Source: Nitrospira sp. (GTDB lineage: Bacteria; Nitrospirota; Nitrospiria; Nitrospirales; Nitrospiraceae). From it: DNA of 64,000 nt. The first letter of the stretch is position 1, and every line of letters begins with the position of its first letter. The translations under genes and the position numbers were made by a program. Of this stretch, positions 23,751 through 35,385 are shown piece after piece. The notes beneath the pieces were generated by a model that was not told the origin of the DNA, made no database searches, and saw nothing but the letters and a program-made list of their open reading frames with translations. The DNA lies in NCBI GenBank assembly GCA_018242725.1, contig JAFEBI010000022.1, positions 124,001 to 188,000 of the forward strand, given 5' to 3'.

Positions 23751-25178
23751 TTAATTCTTTCCAGGACGGGCTTGCTGGGATTGCCATGAGGCTGATCGAA
23801 TCATGCTGCCCCATTCCGCTTTCGTGCCTCGGATCCACCGGATCAGCCCGATCAGTTTCCAGTAGGAATTGAGTTGCCGATACCCAAAGTTCTCCACGAC
23901 CGACACGAGAACTAGCTTAAGAAGATCCGACGGCCGTTGGTACAGATGAAACGTCATCTCTTCCATCAGCAAGGCACTCAGAGACAGGGTGATCCCAAGT
24001 CCAATGGCAACCCCTACACAGACAAGCCAGACCTGTATGGAGACCAAGCCTAACCCCAGCCCGATCAGCAACAACCCATAACCGAAAATCTCAAAAGCCG
24101 GTCCGAACCACTCAAACACTGCCATAAACGGAAAGGCGAGCCATCCAACCGTGCCGCCTTTTGGATGGCAACAGAGTTCGAAGTGCCCTGCGAGGCTGTC
24201 ACAGAGTCCACGTTGCCAGCGGATACGTTGATTCCTGAGCGTGCGATAATCCTCCGGTACTTCGGTCCAACAGACAGGATCCGGCACATAGGTAATCCGA
24301 TAGGGAAGATCATTAACCCGATAGTGGTGATGGAGGCGCACCACCAGTTCCATATCTTCGCCGATCGTAGCCGTTCGGTACCCTCCGACTTTCAATACGG
24401 CCTCCTTCCGAAATAGTCCAAAGGCACCTGAGATGATCAACATCGCATTCATGGGGGACCAGCCCTGTCGACCGGACAAAAACGCGCGGAGGTATTCGAC
24501 GGTTTGGAGAAGGGCCAACAGGCTCGACGGCAGCCCCACCTGTTTCAGGTACCCTGCTTCAACAGAGCAGCCATTGGCGACACGAACGGTGCCGCCGCAA
24601 GCGACGGTACGGTGGTCGAGCAAGAACGGCTGCACCACGCGATAAAGACTATCCTGAGCCAAGACCGAATCCGCGTCGATACAGCAAAACAATGGATAGA
24701 CCGACAGATTGATTCCGGCGTTCAGTGAATCGGCCTTCCCGCCGTTTTCCTTGTCGATCACACGGACATTGGCGTAGATCGAGGAGTGGTACGTCGCTCG
24801 AATCGGTTGCGTCGGCAGATCGCGGCCGTACGCTTCAGGGAAAGGCTTCAGTTCGAACGCTCGCCGCAGTACATCGATGGTATCGTCCTTCGAGCCGTCG
24901 TTGACGACGATGATTTCGTATTCCGGATATCGGAGCTGTAACAAAGATTGAATAGAACTCGCGATTGTGGCGGCTTCGTTATATGCTGGCACAATGATGC
25001 TAATTTGCGGTTCATACCCGGTGAAGGCTTGCGGAAAATGCTCGCCCATCCGCTCTTCGAAGTACTGCCGCAACGAAAAGATGGAAATAGCATTGAGGAG
25101 TAAGTACCCACCCGTCAGGGCAACCAAGTACAGCAGAAATAATGCCTGAGATACACCATAAATCGCTTCGAATGTCAT
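23751..25178 (-). CDS. Processive family 2 glycosyltransferase (polysaccharide synthase)
   Basis: A membrane-bound polysaccharide synthase of the hyaluronan/PgaC/cellulose-synthase type (475 aa from the ATG at 25178). An N-terminal membrane helix is followed by the GT2 core: VPAYNEAATIA, VVNDGS, CIDADS (DxD-like metal site), GED at about residue 270 (catalytic base region) and QRIRW (the QxxRW signature of processive enzymes). Three or four C-terminal helices follow. An in-frame extension of 55 codons upstream would overlap the divergent gene and looks non-coding. Its plus-strand neighbours suggest synthesis and export of an exopolysaccharide; the sugar is unknown. It resembles the E. coli YaiP/YaiO pairing in concept. 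Confidence 0.88.
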   Translation of the reverse strand: MTFEAIYGVSQALFLLYLVALTGGYLLLNAISIFSLRQYFEERMGEHFPQAFTGYEPQISIIVPAYNEAATIASSIQSLLQLRYPEYEIIVVNDGSKDDTIDVLRRAFELKPFPEAYGRDLPTQPIRATYHSSIYANVRVIDKENGGKADSLNAGINLSVYPLFCCIDADSVLAQDSLYRVVQPFLLDHRTVACGGTVRVANGCSVEAGYLKQVGLPSSLLALLQTVEYLRAFLSGRQGWSPMNAMLIISGAFGLFRKEAVLKVGGYRTATIGEDMELVVRLHHHYRVNDLPYRITYVPDPVCWTEVPEDYRTLRNQRIRWQRGLCDSLAGHFELCCHPKGGTVGWLAFPFMAVFEWFGPAFEIFGYGLLLIGLGLGLVSIQVWLVCVGVAIGLGITLSLSALLMEEMTFHLYQRPSDLLKLVLVSVVENFGYRQLNSYWKLIGLIRWIRGTKAEWGSMIRSASWQSQQARPGKN

Positions 25179-25201
25179 GCGTGATTCGAGGCAGAATCGC
25201 A

Positions 25202-26818
25202 ATGCATGTTGGCTCGCTCCCTGAGTTCTTGCCGTCGAGTCGGCTGCATCGACGAGTAGTCGCTTGCGTGATCCTTTTCGCAGGGTGGCTCTGGCCTCCC
25301 ATGGCCCACACCCATGACTTGGCCATTCCCGGGCAGCGTTCACTGACCGATGTCGAGGAGATCGAATTGGTCTATGCCGGTTCCCAGCCTACTCCCAAAA
25401 TTATAGTGCGCGGGCGGCAGACGGCCAATTCATTTGTTCTTTCTTCCCATCGGCCATCAGATGACCGAGTAGATCTGTTACCTCACGCTGAAGCTTGGCA
25501 CCCCATTGCCGCTTGTCAGGCAACCGAAATGAGTCTGGCCCCTTCGCTCCATGTACGGATTGATCACCGGGGAACCACTCCTTGCGGAATGATGTGGTCG
25601 CTGAAAGCAGCCGGCAAGAATCTGGACGCGCTATCGTTTCGCACGCTCCATGTACGTGGAATGACCTCAAGCCCTGTGAAGATTGCATTGGTCGATGCGT
25701 TGACCGAACCAGAACGGGCTCACGCTGTCACCGAACAGCTGACTGGGCACTTCTCTCTCGAGGTGCCGTTGGCTTCACTCGCGAGACAGGTTGACCTTCG
25801 ACAGCTTGCTCAGGTTCGACTCCTGACCGAAGCTGATGCGGATGTGGTTATCGACGAACTTGCGCTTATAGGACCATCGTCTGAACCTCATCCAACTCCA
25901 GTCATCGGATTTTGGTATTGGGACTATCGTGCAGCGATACGAGACCCTGAAAGCATGGTAGCGGCCTGTCGCAAACAGCACTGCCGACGGATCTTGCTGC
26001 AACTACCCGATATGCGCGACGCAGACCAAATCTGGACGGCTTATGCCCAACTCTTCAAGATGACGAAGTCGGCAGACATTGAGCTCCTCGCGCTTGATGG
26101 AGCACCGGACATGATCGACCACGCGGTGCCATTGGTCGGAAAATTGAACCGGTTGCTGGGGCTGATAGAAAGGCATGAGCTTCCTGCTGTGCAGTTGGAC
26201 ATCGAACCGTATCTATTGGAGGGCTTCCCCGAAGACGAAACGATCTTTGATCGTTACGTAGACACTATTGATCGAGTCGCGACCGTCTTGCGGGGTCAAG
26301 CAAAACTCTCCGTAGTGATTCCCTTTTGGTTTTCTTCCACCATTCACAGACAGCGGCCTCTGGCGTTTTCGGTGATGGATCGGGTGGACGAAGTGGCCGT
26401 CATGAGTTATCGGACTGATGTGGATGAGCTGATGACGATCAGCGACGACATTCTCCGCTACGGGGCGTTGGCACGTGTACCGGTCTGGCTTGCCCTGGAA
26501 ACCACGAAGCTGCTTCCCGAGCGACATGTCATCTTGAAACGAGAGCACCGAACCGCTCTGGCTGACGGCGTGCTCGATCCGATCCGACGAATACTGCGAT
26601 TGGAGGCACCGACACAACGGGAACAAGCAGAGCAAGACCGCATGTGGTTTCGCATTCATCATCAGACGACGGTTCGGCCCGAGCGCATTTCATTTTCAGG
26701 TCGCGCTGAACATGAGGTACGGCACACGATTACGGATCTGTTCGCTCGGATTCATCAATCAAGCTTTTCAGGACTCGTAATTCATGATCTGCCCGGCTAC
26801 CTGTCGCTCACACGATGA
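25202..26818 (+). CDS. Secreted putative glycoside-hydrolase-like TIM-barrel protein
   Basis: A 538-aa secreted protein from the ATG at 25202 (upstream ATGs at 25142 and 25172 would overlap the divergent glycosyltransferase). A signal segment (VVACVILFAGWLWPPMAHTH) precedes a beta-rich region of about 200 residues, possibly carbohydrate-binding. From about residue 235 a barrel-like domain begins with IGFWYWDYRAA and contains AVQLDIEPYLLEGFPE, whose acidic pair resembles the catalytic D-x-E of clan GH-K-type hydrolases, then VVIPFWFS and VAVMSYRTD. These strand-end patterns are typical of GH18/GH-like barrels. Role inferred from context: trimming or modifying the exopolysaccharide, comparable to PgaB. 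It is 1 bp from the next gene. Confidence 0.7.
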   Translation: MHVGSLPEFLPSSRLHRRVVACVILFAGWLWPPMAHTHDLAIPGQRSLTDVEEIELVYAGSQPTPKIIVRGRQTANSFVLSSHRPSDDRVDLLPHAEAWHPIAACQATEMSLAPSLHVRIDHRGTTPCGMMWSLKAAGKNLDALSFRTLHVRGMTSSPVKIALVDALTEPERAHAVTEQLTGHFSLEVPLASLARQVDLRQLAQVRLLTEADADVVIDELALIGPSSEPHPTPVIGFWYWDYRAAIRDPESMVAACRKQHCRRILLQLPDMRDADQIWTAYAQLFKMTKSADIELLALDGAPDMIDHAVPLVGKLNRLLGLIERHELPAVQLDIEPYLLEGFPEDETIFDRYVDTIDRVATVLRGQAKLSVVIPFWFSSTIHRQRPLAFSVMDRVDEVAVMSYRTDVDELMTISDDILRYGALARVPVWLALETTKLLPERHVILKREHRTALADGVLDPIRRILRLEAPTQREQAEQDRMWFRIHHQTTVRPERISFSGRAEHEVRHTITDLFARIHQSSFSGLVIHDLPGYLSLTR

Positions 26819-26819
26819 T

Positions 26820-28649
26820 ATGACGACCAACCCAGCCTTAAGGCGATCAACTCCGAATCGTCCTCCTCTGCCGACCATCTGGATCCTTGCCTCGATGCTC
26901 TGCGCGGTCGGATATCAGCCGGTTCATGCGACTGATGGAGTATCCTCACGCGCGTTGCTCGAGCAAGCCAAACAGCTTGAACAAGCTCAACAGTACGCTG
27001 CTGCTATTGACATCTACCGCGCTCTACTTCGACAAGACCCTGAGAATGACGACATTCGAGCCACACTCGCCAGACTATTGTCGTGGCAGGGGTCTCACGC
27101 GGAGGCCACAAGTCTGTACCGCGAAATTATTCAGCATCATCCGACGGATCTTGACGTACGAACCGCCTTGGCACGGGTACTCTCATGGCAAGGAGATAGG
27201 AAAGAAGCTCAGCAACTCTACGAACAGGTATTGCAGGAAGATCCACGGCATGCGGACGCACTCCAAGGATTGGGAGATCTCTTATTCTGGGAACAACGCG
27301 CCATTGAGGCCCTCCCATACTACGAAAAAGCTTATGCCATTGGTCACGATTCGGCGCTCGCTGAGCGGATCGCATCGATCAAACATGGGAATGCTCCGTC
27401 AGACAATCCTCCACCGACCGTGGCTTCTCGTTTCACAACACAGGAGAAAGCAGAGCGGCTCGCACAGGCACAGGCATGGGAGCGAAGTGCCTCATACAGG
27501 CAAGCAATCACCGCCTATCAACAGATCTTGAATGATGCTCCGGCGGACGATGAAACCCGTGGGCGCCTCGCACGCGTTCTGGGACAAGATGGACAGTTCG
27601 ATCAGGCGGCCTCGCTGTATCGCGACATTTTAGCTCGTCATCCCTCGGATCTCGATGTCCAGATCGGCCTTGCACGTGTGCTGTCGTGGCACAAGCAGTA
27701 TGAGTCGGCAATCCAGCAGTATCAACAGGTGCTCCGACAGGACAGTACGAATCGAGAGGCCTTGCAGGGATTGGCTGATACCTTGTTCTGGAACGGGGCT
27801 GCTCCGGAAGCCATTCAACAGTATAAGCGTCTCTATCAGTTGACCGGCGATGAAGCGGTGGCTGCACGCATACGAGACATCACCAGAGCACTCGAAGCCT
27901 CACCGCAGGCCCCGCTAGGCGTGCGAGATGCGACGATTCGTTTGCCCTTCCGGGACTATCTCAAGGTCGGGTACGGTCAATACTCCTACTCACGCGGGAT
28001 TCAGGACGAACGGGATATCGTACTTGAAGTATCAAAATCCATTGGCGCGCAAACCCTCATTGCACGGATCGAACCGATCAATCGATTCGGCTTTCATGAC
28101 ACGGTGTTGTCGGCTGAAGGTTACAGCCCTTTATGGAGCCGAGCCTGGGGCTATCTCGCTGCCCAAGGGACGATCAATCCAGATTTTTCGCCCAAGCACT
28201 CGTTTGCGGGGGAGATTTCCCAGGGACTGGGACTTGTGCATCCTCTGCTCGCCAGACTAGAGGCCTCTCTCGGCTATCGCTACCTGTCCTACAAAACGGA
28301 CAATATTCACTTACTCAGTCCGGGATTCACGATCTTCCTTCCGTTTAACTTCTGGCTCACAGAACGGCTGTATTACGTCCCGGAGACCGGCGCTATCACG
28401 CTTTCATCACGGCTGAACTGGCGCCCCACCGACCGCCTTCAAATCTTCGCATCTGGCTCCTTCGGAACATCCGGCGAACGGATCGTCGCCACGCAAGATG
28501 TGACACGCGTGAGCAGTCGAACCATCCAAGGAGGAATTGTCCTGCCTGTGGCCGATCGAGTCTCTCTGGAAGTCACCGGCTATGACGAAGACCGAGGAGC
28601 GCTGTATACCAGACGCGGAGCCAGTTTCAGCGTCATTTACCACTGGTAA
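26820..28649 (+). CDS. TPR plus outer-membrane beta-barrel protein (YaiO-like exopolysaccharide export)
   Basis: A 609-aa outer-membrane protein starting at the ATG 1 bp after the preceding stop, with a signal segment ending at YQPVHA. Residues about 40-345 hold two similar sets of TPR repeats, each with the pattern ARVLSW...A..LY...L...P followed by ALQGL.D.LFW. The last ~240 residues are a beta-barrel of alternating strands ending in an aromatic residue (SFSVIYHW), typical of BAM-inserted porins and of the YaiO family. TPR-plus-barrel layout matches PgaA-type export proteins, so it probably guides polymer through the periplasm and across the outer membrane. An upstream ATG at 26784 is less likely. 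Confidence 0.82.
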   Translation: MTTNPALRRSTPNRPPLPTIWILASMLCAVGYQPVHATDGVSSRALLEQAKQLEQAQQYAAAIDIYRALLRQDPENDDIRATLARLLSWQGSHAEATSLYREIIQHHPTDLDVRTALARVLSWQGDRKEAQQLYEQVLQEDPRHADALQGLGDLLFWEQRAIEALPYYEKAYAIGHDSALAERIASIKHGNAPSDNPPPTVASRFTTQEKAERLAQAQAWERSASYRQAITAYQQILNDAPADDETRGRLARVLGQDGQFDQAASLYRDILARHPSDLDVQIGLARVLSWHKQYESAIQQYQQVLRQDSTNREALQGLADTLFWNGAAPEAIQQYKRLYQLTGDEAVAARIRDITRALEASPQAPLGVRDATIRLPFRDYLKVGYGQYSYSRGIQDERDIVLEVSKSIGAQTLIARIEPINRFGFHDTVLSAEGYSPLWSRAWGYLAAQGTINPDFSPKHSFAGEISQGLGLVHPLLARLEASLGYRYLSYKTDNIHLLSPGFTIFLPFNFWLTERLYYVPETGAITLSSRLNWRPTDRLQIFASGSFGTSGERIVATQDVTRVSSRTIQGGIVLPVADRVSLEVTGYDEDRGALYTRRGASFSVIYHW

Positions 28650-28660
28650 GGGCAAACGAT

Positions 28661-29767
28661 GTGAGCGAGGAGCGCGTGCTTGCCTTCACTCATACAGATC
28701 TTCCGCTCGACCTCTGGTATATCAGCGCAATCCTGCTGAGCTGCATCATTGCCTTGCTCCTTGCATCTATTCTCCTGTTCCGTCGAAGCCGCCTGGCGGA
28801 CCAACACAGACGACAGCGCGTCATCGCTATCTGGAAACCGTTGCTGGAACAGTACGCTGTGAAAACCTTTCCAACACTCCCCGCCCTGACACGTCGTGAT
28901 CATGTAGTCTTTCTCTATCTCTGGAACGAGCACTATGAATCCGTGCGAGACGCGCCGACCGCACCGCTGGTCCATCTCGCCCAGAGAGTCGGAACTCCCG
29001 ATTTGACGAAAGAACTGTTGCATTCGCACCACCTGGGTCACCGAATGCTCGCTGTGGTCACGTTGGGTCGATTACAGGATCACTCGGCATGGACACCAAT
29101 TCACACCTTAGTGACACATCACAATTCATTCTTGGCGTTCAATGCGGCACAGGCCCTGCTTCGTATCGATCCGAAGGCCGCTCTCCCCCTACTCTTACCC
29201 GTGCTTGGCCGACGAACAGACTGGTCTCCGCTCAAACTTGTCTCCATGCTGCAAACAGCAGGAGGGGATCTGGCATCCGAAATCCTTGCACAGGCCGCCA
29301 TTCAGGGAGATCCGGATATCGGTCCACGACTGATTCGCTACTTGCCTGTGACGAAAAGCCGACGAGGCCTGCCAATCCTCCGACAGTTACTCCATGATGC
29401 TTCCCTCTCCCCAAACATGTTGGCCGCCTGCCTCTTCGTATTCGGAGAATTTCGTGATCCAGCTGATCTCCCGATTGTCCGTCATCATCTGACACATGAG
29501 GCCTGGTACGTCCGGGTTCAGGCTGCGACCGCGTTGGGGAAATTAGGAACCGTCGATGATGAAGAACAGTTGATCGACTTATTCACCGACGACCATTGGT
29601 GGGTTCGCTATCGAGCGGGAGAAGCCTTGGTGAGCCTAGAGTCAATGACGGAAGAGAAACTGATGAGGCTGCAAGAGTCGCTCACATCGCCCGAATCACA
29701 TGAAATTCTCGCTCCCATCTTGGCAAAATTTCGGGCACGCCGTTCTCCGATTGCCGTCAGACCCTAG
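28661..29767 (+). CDS. Membrane-anchored HEAT-repeat protein
   Basis: A 368-aa protein starting with GTG at 28661, whose AAGGG ribosome site overlaps the stop of the preceding gene, so the two are likely coupled. One N-terminal membrane helix (WYISAILLSCIIALLLASILLF) is followed by a basic segment and about six HEAT-like helical repeats (for example VRVQAATALGKLGTVDDEEQL and VRYRAGEALVSL). HEAT arrays serve as protein scaffolds. In this operon it may hold the synthase and exporter together, which is inference. I see no catalytic motif. Confidence 0.8.
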   Translation: MSEERVLAFTHTDLPLDLWYISAILLSCIIALLLASILLFRRSRLADQHRRQRVIAIWKPLLEQYAVKTFPTLPALTRRDHVVFLYLWNEHYESVRDAPTAPLVHLAQRVGTPDLTKELLHSHHLGHRMLAVVTLGRLQDHSAWTPIHTLVTHHNSFLAFNAAQALLRIDPKAALPLLLPVLGRRTDWSPLKLVSMLQTAGGDLASEILAQAAIQGDPDIGPRLIRYLPVTKSRRGLPILRQLLHDASLSPNMLAACLFVFGEFRDPADLPIVRHHLTHEAWYVRVQAATALGKLGTVDDEEQLIDLFTDDHWWVRYRAGEALVSLESMTEEKLMRLQESLTSPESHEILAPILAKFRARRSPIAVRP

Positions 29768-30073: not shown

Positions 30074-32122
30074 TTACTGCCCAGTCGGCCCAGGATTCTT
30101 CTGCTTGTCTGTCAGCTGCCGCTTCCAGGCTTTACAATCGTTGGTCTGGCAATCTTTGACCCATTCCTGCACCCAACCATTATAGACGTTCGGAATCGTC
30201 ATGATGCCCTGTCCACCCATGCCGGCATACTCTGAGATTGTGCCATCTTTTGCCGTCTTGTTGGTTGCCATCAACAAAATTGTTCCAACCACTGTAGCAT
30301 CAGCTGGATTGCCGTCGCCATTGGGATCCGGGTCCACAACGAGCATCCGGTTGGAGAATTTGCTGGAGACATAGGCGTAATAGCCACCACCTTTCTTAGC
30401 GCCGTATTGCACACCGTGACAACCAGGATCACAGCTCAACATCTTCACGACCTTATCGGTTGTCGGCAAGCCAGGTCTGGTATCAACAATTGTAATGGTA
30501 CCGGTCAAGGTATTGGCCGTCACCATATTGGTTCCCCCTGGACTAACAGGCGTCTGAATGGGTAAGGCACCAACTAATGAACAGTCATTAACACCCAGCA
30601 CATATCCTTGATCCGTGGGCTTCTTACAACCTCCGACTGGATCGTACGTGTTCAGCAAATTAATCTCCCCCTTAAACTCGTGGGGATTCACACTATAGAT
30701 CGATATTTTGCTGTCGAGGAAATTAGCCACGTAATACTTACTTGCATCCGGCATCATTCCAGTGGCAATGGGATGGGTCAAGCGGCTACTGGCTGGCAGA
30801 ACTGATGCCAGATTGTTATTGGAGAAATCTACTCGACTGGTACTCCCTGTCAGCACATTCGGAGTCACCATTTTACTGCCGTCAGCGCTCATCCAATGGG
30901 CATGGGGATTACTTTGACCGGCACCGATACTGATCTGCCCTGTTACCGCTGTGCCTAAGGGAGCGACTACCCGGATGGAATTCGGAGTCGGGTCACCGTT
31001 GAGAGTGATGTGAAGTTCGTCTTTGCGAAGTGGATCGTCTGCGGTCGCCCGAGTCATCACGTGAGCCGGGGCATCTCCGACCACGAGATCTCGAATGAGG
31101 GAACCGGTCGCCCGATCAAAGACAGCCAGTCTGTTGTCAAACCACTGGGTCTGGTAGATCAGAGTCTGATCCCGATTCGTCCACATATTGTGGGGATTAT
31201 TCATATTGATCTGCGGGAGTGCGACCTTTCGCTCAACTTTCCAGGTCTCCGCGTTCACAGCAGTGGCAGTACCGGGCTTATTCTTATCGAAGACTTTCTC
31301 AAACTGGGTATCCACCCACACTTGCCCTACACCAGGAGTGGCAGGATTGCCTAGGGGATTCAAGGTGACAGTACGGTTAGCATTCTGATAGCGATCACGC
31401 AATACAGCCGCCACGTTGAGAGCGATGGGGGCCCCATGGTTGTCCTTAAGATTCGTATAGACTTCCACTTCCGGATAAATGGGCGTCCAGGAGCCGGCGG
31501 CATAGTTCTGCCAATTACCAGGATTTGTAGCAATAAAGAATGTTCTGAGCAAACGCGTGGCTAAATCACTGCTGGTTGGGACCTGCTTAAGCGGTTCGAA
31601 AAATTCGCCGTTTGCAATCGTGATAAAATCCCCAAGGTCCAGTGGGAGAGGTCCGGGTGTGCTCAGGTCGTTCACAATTACGGCAGCAAACATGTAGGGA
31701 TGGACGCTGCAGGCTATGACGTACAGCCCCGGCTTCGTCAGCGTCACGGTCTGATCTTCTATAGGCTTCGGATCGTTAAAATTCACGTCTTTGATGAACG
31801 GCATGCCAGGAGCCTGAAAAGGATAGATCAAACTCGTCGCCGTGTGGACTGTTCTGGTCCTTCCACCGCGGGATGGAAACCCAACCGTCTCTCCTGGGTT
31901 AATGATCGCGAGGGATTTCTGTCCGACCGTACCCAGCGCCGCTGCTTCAGGAACACACCCGAGCCCAGACGCCGAGGTGCCTGTATTCGCACATTCGAAC
32001 CAATTTCCTGGTTGGTCTCCGGCTAGAAATGACACGGTCGGTTCAGCAGCCTGGACCATGCCAGCTGTGCCCCATCCTACCACCATACTGAGTAAGGCCA
32101 CTAAGAGGCGTTGTTTTTTCAT
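30074..32122 (-). CDS. Cupredoxin (amicyanin-like) fused to a YVTN-type beta-propeller
   Basis: A 682-aa secreted protein with signal peptide 1-25. The N-terminal domain carries a type 1 copper site: H93 (TVHTATS) and C138-x2-H141-x2-M144 (CSVHPYM), the short ligand loop seen in amicyanin. From about residue 200 a beta-propeller follows, with YVTN-like blades. Several blades start with a histidine motif: NPH311, APAH354, NPH407-A-H409-W, THP (H450) and C564DPGC568H569, the last being a CxxxCH pattern. Extra cysteine pairs (C44/C56, C499/C514, C658/C663) suggest a disulfide-rich exported fold. The ATG follows AAAGGAAAG. It lies 94 bp after the multicopper oxidase gene and is probably cotranscribed. 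Role unknown; periplasmic electron transfer or copper chemistry is likely. Confidence 0.8.
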   Translation of the reverse strand: MKKQRLLVALLSMVVGWGTAGMVQAAEPTVSFLAGDQPGNWFECANTGTSASGLGCVPEAAALGTVGQKSLAIINPGETVGFPSRGGRTRTVHTATSLIYPFQAPGMPFIKDVNFNDPKPIEDQTVTLTKPGLYVIACSVHPYMFAAVIVNDLSTPGPLPLDLGDFITIANGEFFEPLKQVPTSSDLATRLLRTFFIATNPGNWQNYAAGSWTPIYPEVEVYTNLKDNHGAPIALNVAAVLRDRYQNANRTVTLNPLGNPATPGVGQVWVDTQFEKVFDKNKPGTATAVNAETWKVERKVALPQINMNNPHNMWTNRDQTLIYQTQWFDNRLAVFDRATGSLIRDLVVGDAPAHVMTRATADDPLRKDELHITLNGDPTPNSIRVVAPLGTAVTGQISIGAGQSNPHAHWMSADGSKMVTPNVLTGSTSRVDFSNNNLASVLPASSRLTHPIATGMMPDASKYYVANFLDSKISIYSVNPHEFKGEINLLNTYDPVGGCKKPTDQGYVLGVNDCSLVGALPIQTPVSPGGTNMVTANTLTGTITIVDTRPGLPTTDKVVKMLSCDPGCHGVQYGAKKGGGYYAYVSSKFSNRMLVVDPDPNGDGNPADATVVGTILLMATNKTAKDGTISEYAGMGGQGIMTIPNVYNGWVQEWVKDCQTNDCKAWKRQLTDKQKNPGPTGQ

Positions 32123-32216: not shown

Positions 32217-34112
32217 TTAGGGTGTAGGGGCAGCAACGACATCAAGTTCAGAAATCATACCCAGAGTGGCATGAAAGAGGATGTGACAATGAAAGAGCCA
32301 CCGCCCCAGTCCTCCCCCAGTGGGCGTTGCATTCTCCAGCACCTTCCCTTTGGCATTATAAAAATTTGGACGGTCGTCCAATCGGACCCTGAACGTCAAA
32401 GTGTGTTTTGAAGGGATATCAAGCTCGTCCACAAACTCATGATACCCGTAGCTATATGGCAACGCTCCTGGCTTGCTCAAGCTGACCGGTTGAATGGAAA
32501 ATCCATGCAAATGAAACGGATGATGCGCTCCTGTCTCATTCGTCACCGTGAGTTCTAGCGTGTCTCCAATCTGTGCAAACCGGGCCGAAGCTGGAAGAGT
32601 ACTGTGGTCATGATCCCCCTGGATATCGTTCACTCCGAGCTGACCTCCTGAGTTCGTGAACGTAATGGGAGAACCCATCCCCTGTGCAAGGAGACTCCCT
32701 TGGAGAGGCAACAACTCCTTCACCAAATCCCCAGCCGGACGCAACGGCGTGCCATTAGCAATCGTATACGTTCCCCCTTGACCTGCCACCTTCAGATGCA
32801 TAGCGGGAACAGTCGGAATCCACGCATAGCTATTTAAACCACCAGCTCGTTGGAAGTCTTCTGTCCAGAGAGTCAGAATGTGATCAATCGCCAATCCACT
32901 CGGAATCACCGCCACTACATCCTGACGGCTTCCAGGCGGAATCAGAATCTGGCCTTCTTTATAGTTGAATTTAAACACTGAAGTACTCGTATCTCCCTCA
33001 AGACGAGCTTGGTCGAGCAGTCCACCTTGTCCTCCGATTCGAACAAGATTGACCTGCTGCCCCGTGCCGTCAGTCAAATGAAGACGAACGTAGCGGGTCG
33101 CCGATGAATTAATGACCTGTAACCGAAGTCCCTGACCTGCCGTCACAGCAAGCGTCCGCGCACCGGACGCAAGCACGCCTGGACTCTCAGGAGTCCCAGT
33201 CCTCGCACCGACATTGACACCATTGGTAAGAACCGTCTGTCCTTCGCCGACCGGGGGGCCGGTCATAATGTTCGGCACCTCTCCGGCCTTGAATACAGAT
33301 CGAAGATTTCCTTCTTCATCAACGGGGAACTCATCACAGAGAACCTTTGGAGTTTTGCCGGCCCAGGTACCACTCCACGAACCACTGACGTGCGGCAGTG
33401 TGGAAGTGTCATAGGTCGCCGCATCGTTGGTCCCCGGCGCTTTGCAGACCGTGATGTCGCTCAGCACCAGCGTCTTGGTTTGTGCTGCAGAAGGGAGCAC
33501 CGTCCCCTGAAGGTTTGCATCAAGGGTTTCGGTCACAATCAACGACCCATAGAGCCCTTGGAACACTTGGTTAGTCGACGAATGGTGATGGGGGTGATAC
33601 CAGAAGATCCCCGGTCGCGTCACGGTGAACTTATAATCGAATTTTTGTCCCGGCTTCAGTTGTGCCTGGGTCAGTGGTGTCCCGTCGCTGGCATTGTTCA
33701 ACTCGACGCCATGCCAGTGAATTCCCGTGACCTCTTTGTTCAGTTTGTTCTGAAAATGCACAAGAACCGTGTCTCCCACCTTGAGCCGAAATTCCGGCCC
33801 CGGTATGGTACCGACCACACCTTCACACACATCAAAACTGGCGCAACTCTTAAACGTGAGCGCGTTCGTAATACTTACCCCATTGTCGATATTGACGGTT
33901 GCCTCATCTGCCACCAGATAGGTCTCGACGATGTTGCCAGCAGGATTGACATCAACGACCTGGGGCACCTCATAGGGACTGCCTCCGGTTGTGGCCTGTG
34001 CTGATTCACTACCGAACAAACCCAACATGAGCGTCACGGCAGCAACGAGGCACGTTGTCCAACTGAGGACGTTCATGACTTTCTCGAAATTACTTGATAC
34101 ATCTTTCACCAT
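32217..34112 (-). CDS. Three-domain multicopper oxidase
   Basis: A 631-aa secreted oxidase from the ATG at 34112 (ribosome site GGGAGAGG), with a signal peptide ending near SESAQA. All four copper-binding blocks are intact: IHWHGVE (about 131-137), WYHPHHHSS (171-179), HPFHLHG (about 535) and FHCHILFHATLGM (607-619). The last supplies the type 1 Cys-His-Met set and the trinuclear histidines. The layout is laccase/copper-oxidase-like rather than copper nitrite reductase. Substrate cannot be told; copper, manganese or phenolic compounds are family possibilities. A long upstream in-frame extension (to 34346) has no secretion signal and is rejected. Confidence 0.93.
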   Translation of the reverse strand: MVKDVSSNFEKVMNVLSWTTCLVAAVTLMLGLFGSESAQATTGGSPYEVPQVVDVNPAGNIVETYLVADEATVNIDNGVSITNALTFKSCASFDVCEGVVGTIPGPEFRLKVGDTVLVHFQNKLNKEVTGIHWHGVELNNASDGTPLTQAQLKPGQKFDYKFTVTRPGIFWYHPHHHSSTNQVFQGLYGSLIVTETLDANLQGTVLPSAAQTKTLVLSDITVCKAPGTNDAATYDTSTLPHVSGSWSGTWAGKTPKVLCDEFPVDEEGNLRSVFKAGEVPNIMTGPPVGEGQTVLTNGVNVGARTGTPESPGVLASGARTLAVTAGQGLRLQVINSSATRYVRLHLTDGTGQQVNLVRIGGQGGLLDQARLEGDTSTSVFKFNYKEGQILIPPGSRQDVVAVIPSGLAIDHILTLWTEDFQRAGGLNSYAWIPTVPAMHLKVAGQGGTYTIANGTPLRPAGDLVKELLPLQGSLLAQGMGSPITFTNSGGQLGVNDIQGDHDHSTLPASARFAQIGDTLELTVTNETGAHHPFHLHGFSIQPVSLSKPGALPYSYGYHEFVDELDIPSKHTLTFRVRLDDRPNFYNAKGKVLENATPTGGGLGRWLFHCHILFHATLGMISELDVVAAPTP

Positions 34113-34783: not shown

Positions 34784-35385
34784 TTACTGGATCGGATTGC
34801 GTTGAGCAGGCGTCAGCTGATTCTTCCGTGAGTCCGGAAGGTTCTGCACCCATCCATTGTGGACGACCTGAATCGTGGGCATCCCCTGTCCCCCTCATGC
34901 CGCGATTGCTCGTGATGGTATCGTCAGTAGCGCTAGCGCCGGTCGCAGTGAGCAGAATACCGCCGGCAATGGTCGCATTGCCCAGATTGCCGTTATTGTC
35001 ACGATCTGGGTCAACGATAATGAGACTGTTTGGAACTTGCTCGAGACATAAGCGTAGTATCCTCCGCTCTGCTTGGCCCCGTACTGCACACCATGGCAAC
35101 CTGAATCACAGTCGAACATTTTCACGACCGTGGAGGTTGCCAACAGATTGATCGTCCCCATCGGCAATTGCGTCGCGGTATCCATGGTCGTGATCGTGCT
35201 TTTGAGAAGACTGGCCACGTAGGCTTTCGTTGAATCCGGCGTCATCCCGGTCGCAACCGGGGAATTGCCTGTCTGGCGAATCGCTTCGATGCGGTTCTTG
35301 GCAAAAATTGTAATGAGTGCTGTTCGCTGTAAGGACATTTGACGTCAGCATCGGCTTGTCATCATGGCTCATCCAGGTCACACAG
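34784..35385 (-). pseudogene. Decayed 3' fragment of a cupredoxin-propeller paralogue
   Basis: Read in shifting frames on the minus strand, this stretch matches the C-terminal ~270 residues of the intact protein encoded at 30074-32122. Frame one gives TWMSHDDKPMLTSNVLT (compare HWMSADGSKMVTPNVLT). Frame two gives PVATGMTPDSTKAYVA and then VVKMFDCDSGCHGVQYGAK (compare VVKMLSCDPGCHGVQYGAK). A third frame gives NSLIIVDPD, and a further shift gives GQGMPTIQVVHNGWVQ and a normal stop at 34784. At least three frameshifts and an internal loss of about 50 residues (the segment between NLL and VVKM) are present. The N-terminal cupredoxin part is absent. The CxxxCH motif is retained. Confidence 0.88.

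Follow-up and report, generated by a model that had tools for sequence, protein, structure and literature searches.

A cupredoxin-propeller protein family of nitrifiers with a predicted copper site and a recurrent link to multicopper oxidases

Introduction

Nitrification depends on copper proteins for much of its chemistry, and there is continuing debate on how nitrifiers deal with nitric oxide and related intermediates. NosZ-like proteins described in Nitrospirota have a lactonase-type propeller (PMC11033732). Methanethiol oxidase, also called SELENBP1, is a copper enzyme built on a propeller, the copper of which is held by histidines of the cavity (PMC10362175). The genes most strongly induced by copper limitation in the archaeon Nitrososphaera viennensis include those of two-domain multicopper oxidases that carry an additional blue copper domain, and these oxidases were proposed to serve copper uptake (PMC7785015). 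Here we analyze a gene from a 64-kb stretch of Nitrospira DNA, referred to as the window, the product of which combines a cupredoxin with a propeller. A search of the open-access literature, with subscription papers outside its scope, found no description of this cupredoxin-propeller family.

Results

Organization of the cupredoxin-propeller protein

The minus strand of the window contains a 682-codon open reading frame that encodes the cupredoxin-propeller protein. Because the N-terminus reads as a Sec-type signal peptide, which forms a helix of residues 2–20 in the AlphaFold2 model, the protein is expected to function outside the cytoplasm. The signal peptide is followed by the cupredoxin domain, a linker region, and seven propeller blades. 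No Pfam family matches the window protein, and NCBIfam yields weak matches alone, to a propeller model and, weaker still, to pseudoazurin; the whole protein is covered by a family from neither collection. The features of the gene and its surroundings are:

30074..32122, minus strand: cupredoxin-propeller protein, 682 residues, expected to be exported (open reading frame, AlphaFold2 model, conservation)
32048..32122, minus strand: Sec-type signal peptide, residues 1–25, MKKQRLLVALLSMVVGWGTAGMVQA (read from the sequence; putative cleavage site)
31658..32047, minus strand: cupredoxin domain, residues 26–155, with type 1 copper ligands H93, C138, H141, and M144
31691..31711, minus strand: type 1 copper ligand loop C138-SVHPY-M144 (sequence and conservation)
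31337..31657, minus strand: linker region, residues 156–262 (models; hardly covered in the fold comparison)
30185..31336, minus strand: seven-bladed propeller, residues 263–646 (AlphaFold2 model and VIA-align)
31190..31192, minus strand: H311 of blade 1, invariant (conservation)
31061..31063, minus strand: H354 of blade 2, invariant (conservation)
30896..30904, minus strand: H407-A-H409 of blade 3, H407 invariant and H409 in 131/132 members (conservation)
30554..30556, minus strand: Q523 of blade 5, invariant (conservation)
30416..30433, minus strand: CDPGCH of blade 6, residues 564–569, H569 invariant and the cysteines not (conservation)
30209..30211, minus strand: Q638 of blade 7, in 130/132 members (conservation)
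32217..34112, minus strand: multicopper oxidase containing the complete set of ligand motifs, HWHG, HPHHH, HPFHLH, and HCHILFHATLGM (putative start codon)
34787..35320, minus strand: decayed second cupredoxin-propeller gene, of which the propeller part alone is left in a broken frame, upstream of the multicopper oxidase

Predicted structures of the cupredoxin and propeller domains

The AlphaFold2 model, calculated with 64 relatives as input, has a pLDDT of 87.9 and a pTM of 0.90. The inner strands of the seven blades, which were assigned from the strand list of the model, start near residues 310, 352, 406, 451, 521, 568, and 637, and the last blade is closed by strands that precede the first one. 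With seven four-stranded blades and YVTN-like repeats, the domain belongs to the seven-bladed propellers of the YVTN/YncE type. The top match in the VIA-align comparison of the Foldseek list is an archaeal YVTN propeller (PDB: 1l0q; Z 37.8, rmsd 2.0, 295 residues aligned), and nitrous oxide reductase (PDB: 5i5j) can be superimposed onto the propeller with Z 31.0 and rmsd 2.9 over 314 residues. Nitrous oxide reductase entries stand among many non-metal propellers in the fold list, and the matches of the modeled propeller are evidence of its fold, not of its function.

The cupredoxin part, modeled alone, has a pLDDT of 84.1 and a pTM of 0.83. VIA-align matched it to pseudoazurin (PDB: 8wqz; Z 9.1, rmsd 3.2, 109 residues aligned) and also to plastocyanin (Z 8 to 9). 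The His-Cys-His-Met ligand set within a cupredoxin fold identifies the domain as a type 1 copper cupredoxin.

Conservation of the copper ligands and of the propeller ring

Homologues were collected from the phylum, a named genome collection, Nitrosomonadaceae, and Nitrososphaeraceae, and the conservation set comprises 132 members, 34 of which are non-redundant at less than 70% identity. The type 1 copper ligands H93, C138, H141, and M144 are never replaced in the 132 members and are interrupted by gaps only in a few incomplete rows. Residues H311, H354, H407, H569, A453, and Q523 are present in all 132 members, and H409 (131/132) and Q638 (130/132) are nearly invariant. The same residues stand out in the 34-member set. 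The ligands are conserved throughout the bacterial short forms, the bacterial fusions and N-terminally extended forms (19/19), and the archaeal members (9/9 plus L199). The conserved residues of the blades may converge as a ring at the top of the propeller channel.

A sequence-only reading of the locus had located the residues H93, C138-x2-H141-x2-M144, H311, H354, H407, H409, H450, H569, and CDPGCH correctly throughout, and its proposal that several blades begin with a histidine agrees with the model, in which the corresponding inner strands begin near residues 310, 352, 406, 451, and 568. Its expectation that these histidines are kept in the family holds for most of them but not for H450, which is a histidine in 52 of the 132 members. 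The pattern of histidines at the predicted blade starts is not a product of chance, because four of them are strictly invariant and H409 is missing from a single member. The reading had overlooked the ring glutamines Q523 and Q638 and residue H371, which is present in 107/132 members, retained in most short forms, and lost in the fusions.

The CDPGCH sequence of blade 6 had been suggested to be a CxxxCH variant of a heme-attachment site. The motif is found in most members, which speaks for attachment of heme c, but C564 is retained in 126 members and replaced in 6, C568 is retained in 129 and replaced in 3, and H569 is always kept. Furthermore, the model places H569 in the inner strand of blade 6, at a position equivalent to those of the other ring histidines. 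Heme attachment is unlikely because the histidine of the motif outlives its cysteines; a cytochrome c of the CxxxCH type was rejected on these grounds, and we give heme c at this site a negligible chance. Of the permuted copper or heme enzyme proposed from the sequence, the heme half falls, whereas the copper half, with its invariant type 1 site and four invariant ring histidines, survives the tests run as a predicted property of the family.

Relationship to nitrous oxide reductase

The NCBIfam model of the clade III lactonase-type NosZ (NF052460) matches 60 of 64 family members weakly, with a best E-value of 2.6e-16, and generic propeller models likewise match weakly. Member L149 scored alone reached 45.2 bits, and the curated cut-off of 700 bits is not attained by the family. 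Comparison of the family profile with six L-NosZ-like proteins from the phylum gave a probability of 96 and an E-value of 4.8e-9, and pairwise BLASTP of a family member with L-NosZ an E-value of 2e-6. In the profile alignment, which is driven in part by the ring residues themselves and thus is not independent proof, H311 aligns with L-NosZ H134, the first histidine of an HH pair, H407-x-H409 aligns with H220-x-H222 in an NPHxH motif common to both, and H569 aligns with H384. The position of L-NosZ H263 is occupied by A453, Q523 adjoins L-NosZ H326 and coincides with it if a four-residue gap is shifted, and H354 is without a counterpart. The alignment of H311, H407, and H569 with histidines of lactonase-type NosZ, the cupredoxin of which is at the opposite terminus, supports the copper reading suggested from the sequence; H450, also named in that suggestion, varies.

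The breadth of the NF052460 matches and the three aligned histidines are what could be expected if the window protein were a nitrous oxide reductase of clade III. However, the scores are far below the cut-off, all 132 members have an alanine in place of H263 and a glutamine at or beside H326, and instead of a C-terminal cupredoxin with two cysteines there is a type 1 domain at the N-terminus that has a single cysteine. NosZ membership was rejected on the basis of the cut-off, the domain order, and the missing ring histidines, and we consider it highly improbable. We conclude that the family shares the scaffold of lactonase-type NosZ, with a similar but smaller ligand ring, without being a member of it.

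The search for NosZ in 34 genomes that carry the family found cupredoxin fragments alone, none of them above the cut-off. The NosD search of the window's own genome was uninformative, as its matches come from a family that is also present in genomes without NosZ-type metabolism. A divergent L-NosZ-like protein from Nitrospirota (L195), which scores under the family cut-off, has the sequence DLRGP where L189 has the blade histidine of DLHEP.

Multicopper oxidases next to and fused with the family

In the window, the multicopper oxidase gene is located 94 nt upstream of the cupredoxin-propeller gene on the same strand, and the same pair, with a full-motif oxidase directly upstream, occurs in 13 named Nitrospira loci. 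Nitrosomonadaceae encode two forms of the protein, a short one of about 610 residues and a fused one of 917–977 residues, the first ~300 residues of which are a two-domain laccase-like oxidase. The fused form was also found in Nitrososphaeraceae, so that single-frame fusions to a two-domain multicopper oxidase are present in ammonia-oxidizing bacteria and archaea. Fusions were counted as evidence if their open frames were uninterrupted, and L155 was additionally checked for N; the 1317-residue oxidase-propeller "fusion" of L124 contains an assembly gap, visible as X in the translation, and was discarded. Most short forms of Nitrosomonas have no adjacent multicopper oxidase. In the Nitrosomonadaceae loci L173–L187, a second laccase-like gene, encoding about 334 residues, is positioned directly upstream of the oxidase-cupredoxin-propeller fusion, and it is preceded by a LuxR-type response regulator in several annotated loci.

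An intact counterpart of the decayed second copy in the window has the same place and gene order in locus L079 (3164-4996). The contig of L138, which carries an archaeal short form, also contains a gene that reads as a TFB transcription factor, and this speaks against contamination there. DUF5666 proteins are encoded near short forms in both Nitrosomonas and Nitrospira (for example, L125:4709-6448 and L136:10359-11807), and an outer-membrane-barrel-like family accompanies the short forms in loci of the two genera. Directly downstream of the Nitrosomonas short form, a conserved acidic protein is encoded in L112 (9794-10501), L118 (9994-10653), and 21 further loci; it has no Pfam or NCBIfam match in the members tested, and its C-terminus resembles a calcium-binding secreted protein. 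Positions 23751-29767 of the window contain glycosyltransferase, TPR-YaiO barrel, and HEAT-repeat genes, the order of which is kept beside the locus in several Nitrospira genomes.

Distribution of the family

Matches to the family were obtained in 89 of 125 genomes of Nitrosomonadaceae, and most of these matches are strong. Strong matches were also obtained in 55 of 175 genomes of Nitrospiraceae and 16 of 70 genomes of Nitrososphaeraceae. In Burkholderiales, 9 of 399 genomes have a strong match, all nine belonging to Nitrosomonadaceae, and the next match is a partial propeller with an E-value of 7.5e-21. Relatives also occur in bins of Chloroflexi, Rokubacteria, Acidobacteria, and Methylomirabilota, the last of which carries a gene of the AMO/PMO family, and the family is thus not confined to nitrifiers. 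The phyla are not cleanly separated in the family tree, where the window sequence has a long branch; this mixing fits transfer or old paralogy.

Among Nitrospiraceae, 37 genomes have both AMO and the family, 18 the family only, 24 AMO only, and 96 neither (Fisher p 2e-9, phylogeny ignored). The association is positive, and since phylogeny is ignored we do not use it as proof. AMO had no match in the window's own genome, which may belong to a nitrite oxidizer or lack AMO in its assembly. The family is not required for ammonia oxidation, because it is missing from 24 Nitrospiraceae that have AMO, whereas the genome of the window has the family but no AMO match.

Discussion

We propose, with a probability of about 0.5, that the window protein is exported and acts as a copper redox enzyme, with electrons passing from a predicted copper site of the propeller via the type 1 copper to a partner multicopper oxidase. 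The ring residues at the top of the propeller channel would hold one or two copper ions, at which a small substrate would be oxidized. From this site the electron would reach first the type 1 copper and then the multicopper oxidase, where O2 would be reduced to water. The case for an enzyme is strengthened because the family recurs as a neighbor of multicopper oxidases or in fusion with them. The substrate may be a nitrogen oxide, such as NO or hydroxylamine, or Cu(I), and the suggestion of a nitrogen intermediate derives from the distribution in nitrifiers and nothing else. The proposal is weakened by the many ammonia oxidizers that lack the gene, by the relatives in bins of non-nitrifier lineages (Chloroflexi, Rokubacteria, and Acidobacteria), and by the Nitrosomonas short forms that have no oxidase beside them. 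The narrower version of the proposal, an unrecognized copper oxidase of nitrifiers that converts a nitrogen intermediate such as NO to nitrite, at an active site evolved on the scaffold of L-NosZ, and delivers the electrons through the type 1 copper and the multicopper oxidase to O2, is a long shot.

Alternatively, the protein could be part of a copper homeostasis module, in which the propeller binds Cu(I) and delivers it either to a transporter or to the multicopper oxidase, which would oxidize it, without any nitrogen catalysis. Copper handling is a serious rival to the nitrogen-substrate reading, because related archaeal oxidases, those of Nitrososphaera viennensis, respond to copper limitation (PMC7785015), and the linkage to multicopper oxidases would suit it too. 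However, the annotated conserved neighbors include no conspicuous family of copper transporters or chaperones, and four or five histidines ringed in a propeller channel would be an unusual store, and we find this role doubtful. The protein might also be a simple electron-transfer cupredoxin mounted on a propeller, in which case the histidines would be structural or would bind a structural metal. In YVTN propellers, blades commonly start with a motif in which a histidine follows a proline, which counts against a copper site. Several non-metal propellers match better than nitrous oxide reductase in the fold comparison, and conservation of at least 97% is reached in 110 of the 682 columns, which shows that invariance is not confined to histidines. 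Nevertheless, the window protein has 11 histidines, of which 7 occupy invariant or nearly invariant columns, four of these 7 being at blade starts, while H450, H481, and H229 vary freely among relatives, which makes a purely structural role unlikely. The locus merits more attention than a plain cupredoxin would.

The copper redox enzyme that we propose makes the family a testable candidate for an uncharacterized copper enzyme of the nitrogen cycle with a predicted copper site of its own. The family is found in ammonia-oxidizing bacteria, in Nitrospira whether or not AMO is present, and in some ammonia-oxidizing archaea, and its fusion to an oxidase of the oxygen-reducing type spans two domains of life. 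If the proposal is correct, the copper site of nitrous oxide reductase would be one of several such sites on the propeller scaffold.

Methanethiol oxidase (SBP56), itself built on a seven-bladed propeller with cavity histidines (PMC10362175), provides a precedent for a propeller copper enzyme of the proposed kind. Its motifs (HxxH and HH, plus Asp and Glu), compared by description only, differ from those of the window protein, and, unlike here, no cupredoxin domain is described for it (PMC10362175). The window protein has no Pfam or NCBIfam match to the SBP56 and methanethiol oxidase families, and the absence of SBP56 among the fold matches listed is uninformative. The archaeal MCO4, an oxidase with an additional blue copper domain (PMC7785015; PDB: 9cck) that appears among the cupredoxin fold matches, resembles the fused forms of the family in that a two-domain laccase-like module is followed by a cupredoxin. 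In contrast to MCO4 and other two-domain multicopper oxidases, the proteins of the present family continue after the cupredoxin with a complete propeller and its invariant ring of histidines. Clade I NosZ is similar in the overall fold of the propeller (PDB: 1fwx; Z 29.7, rmsd 2.9, 318 residues aligned by VIA-align), but its profile (TIGR04244) gives an hhalign probability of 7, against a fold Z of about 30; its domain order is reversed relative to the window protein, which is without the two-cysteine CuA loop. L-NosZ (clade III, NF052460) likewise combines a YVTN/lactonase-like seven-bladed propeller with a cupredoxin. However, the L-NosZ cupredoxin is C-terminal and has a two-cysteine CuA loop, whereas that of the window protein is N-terminal with a single-cysteine type 1 loop, and in place of the complete histidine ring of the catalytic cluster there is part of the ring, with H354 as an extra histidine. 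What is new here is a cupredoxin-propeller copper protein in which the order of the domains is reversed, the ligand ring differs, and an oxidase is attached.
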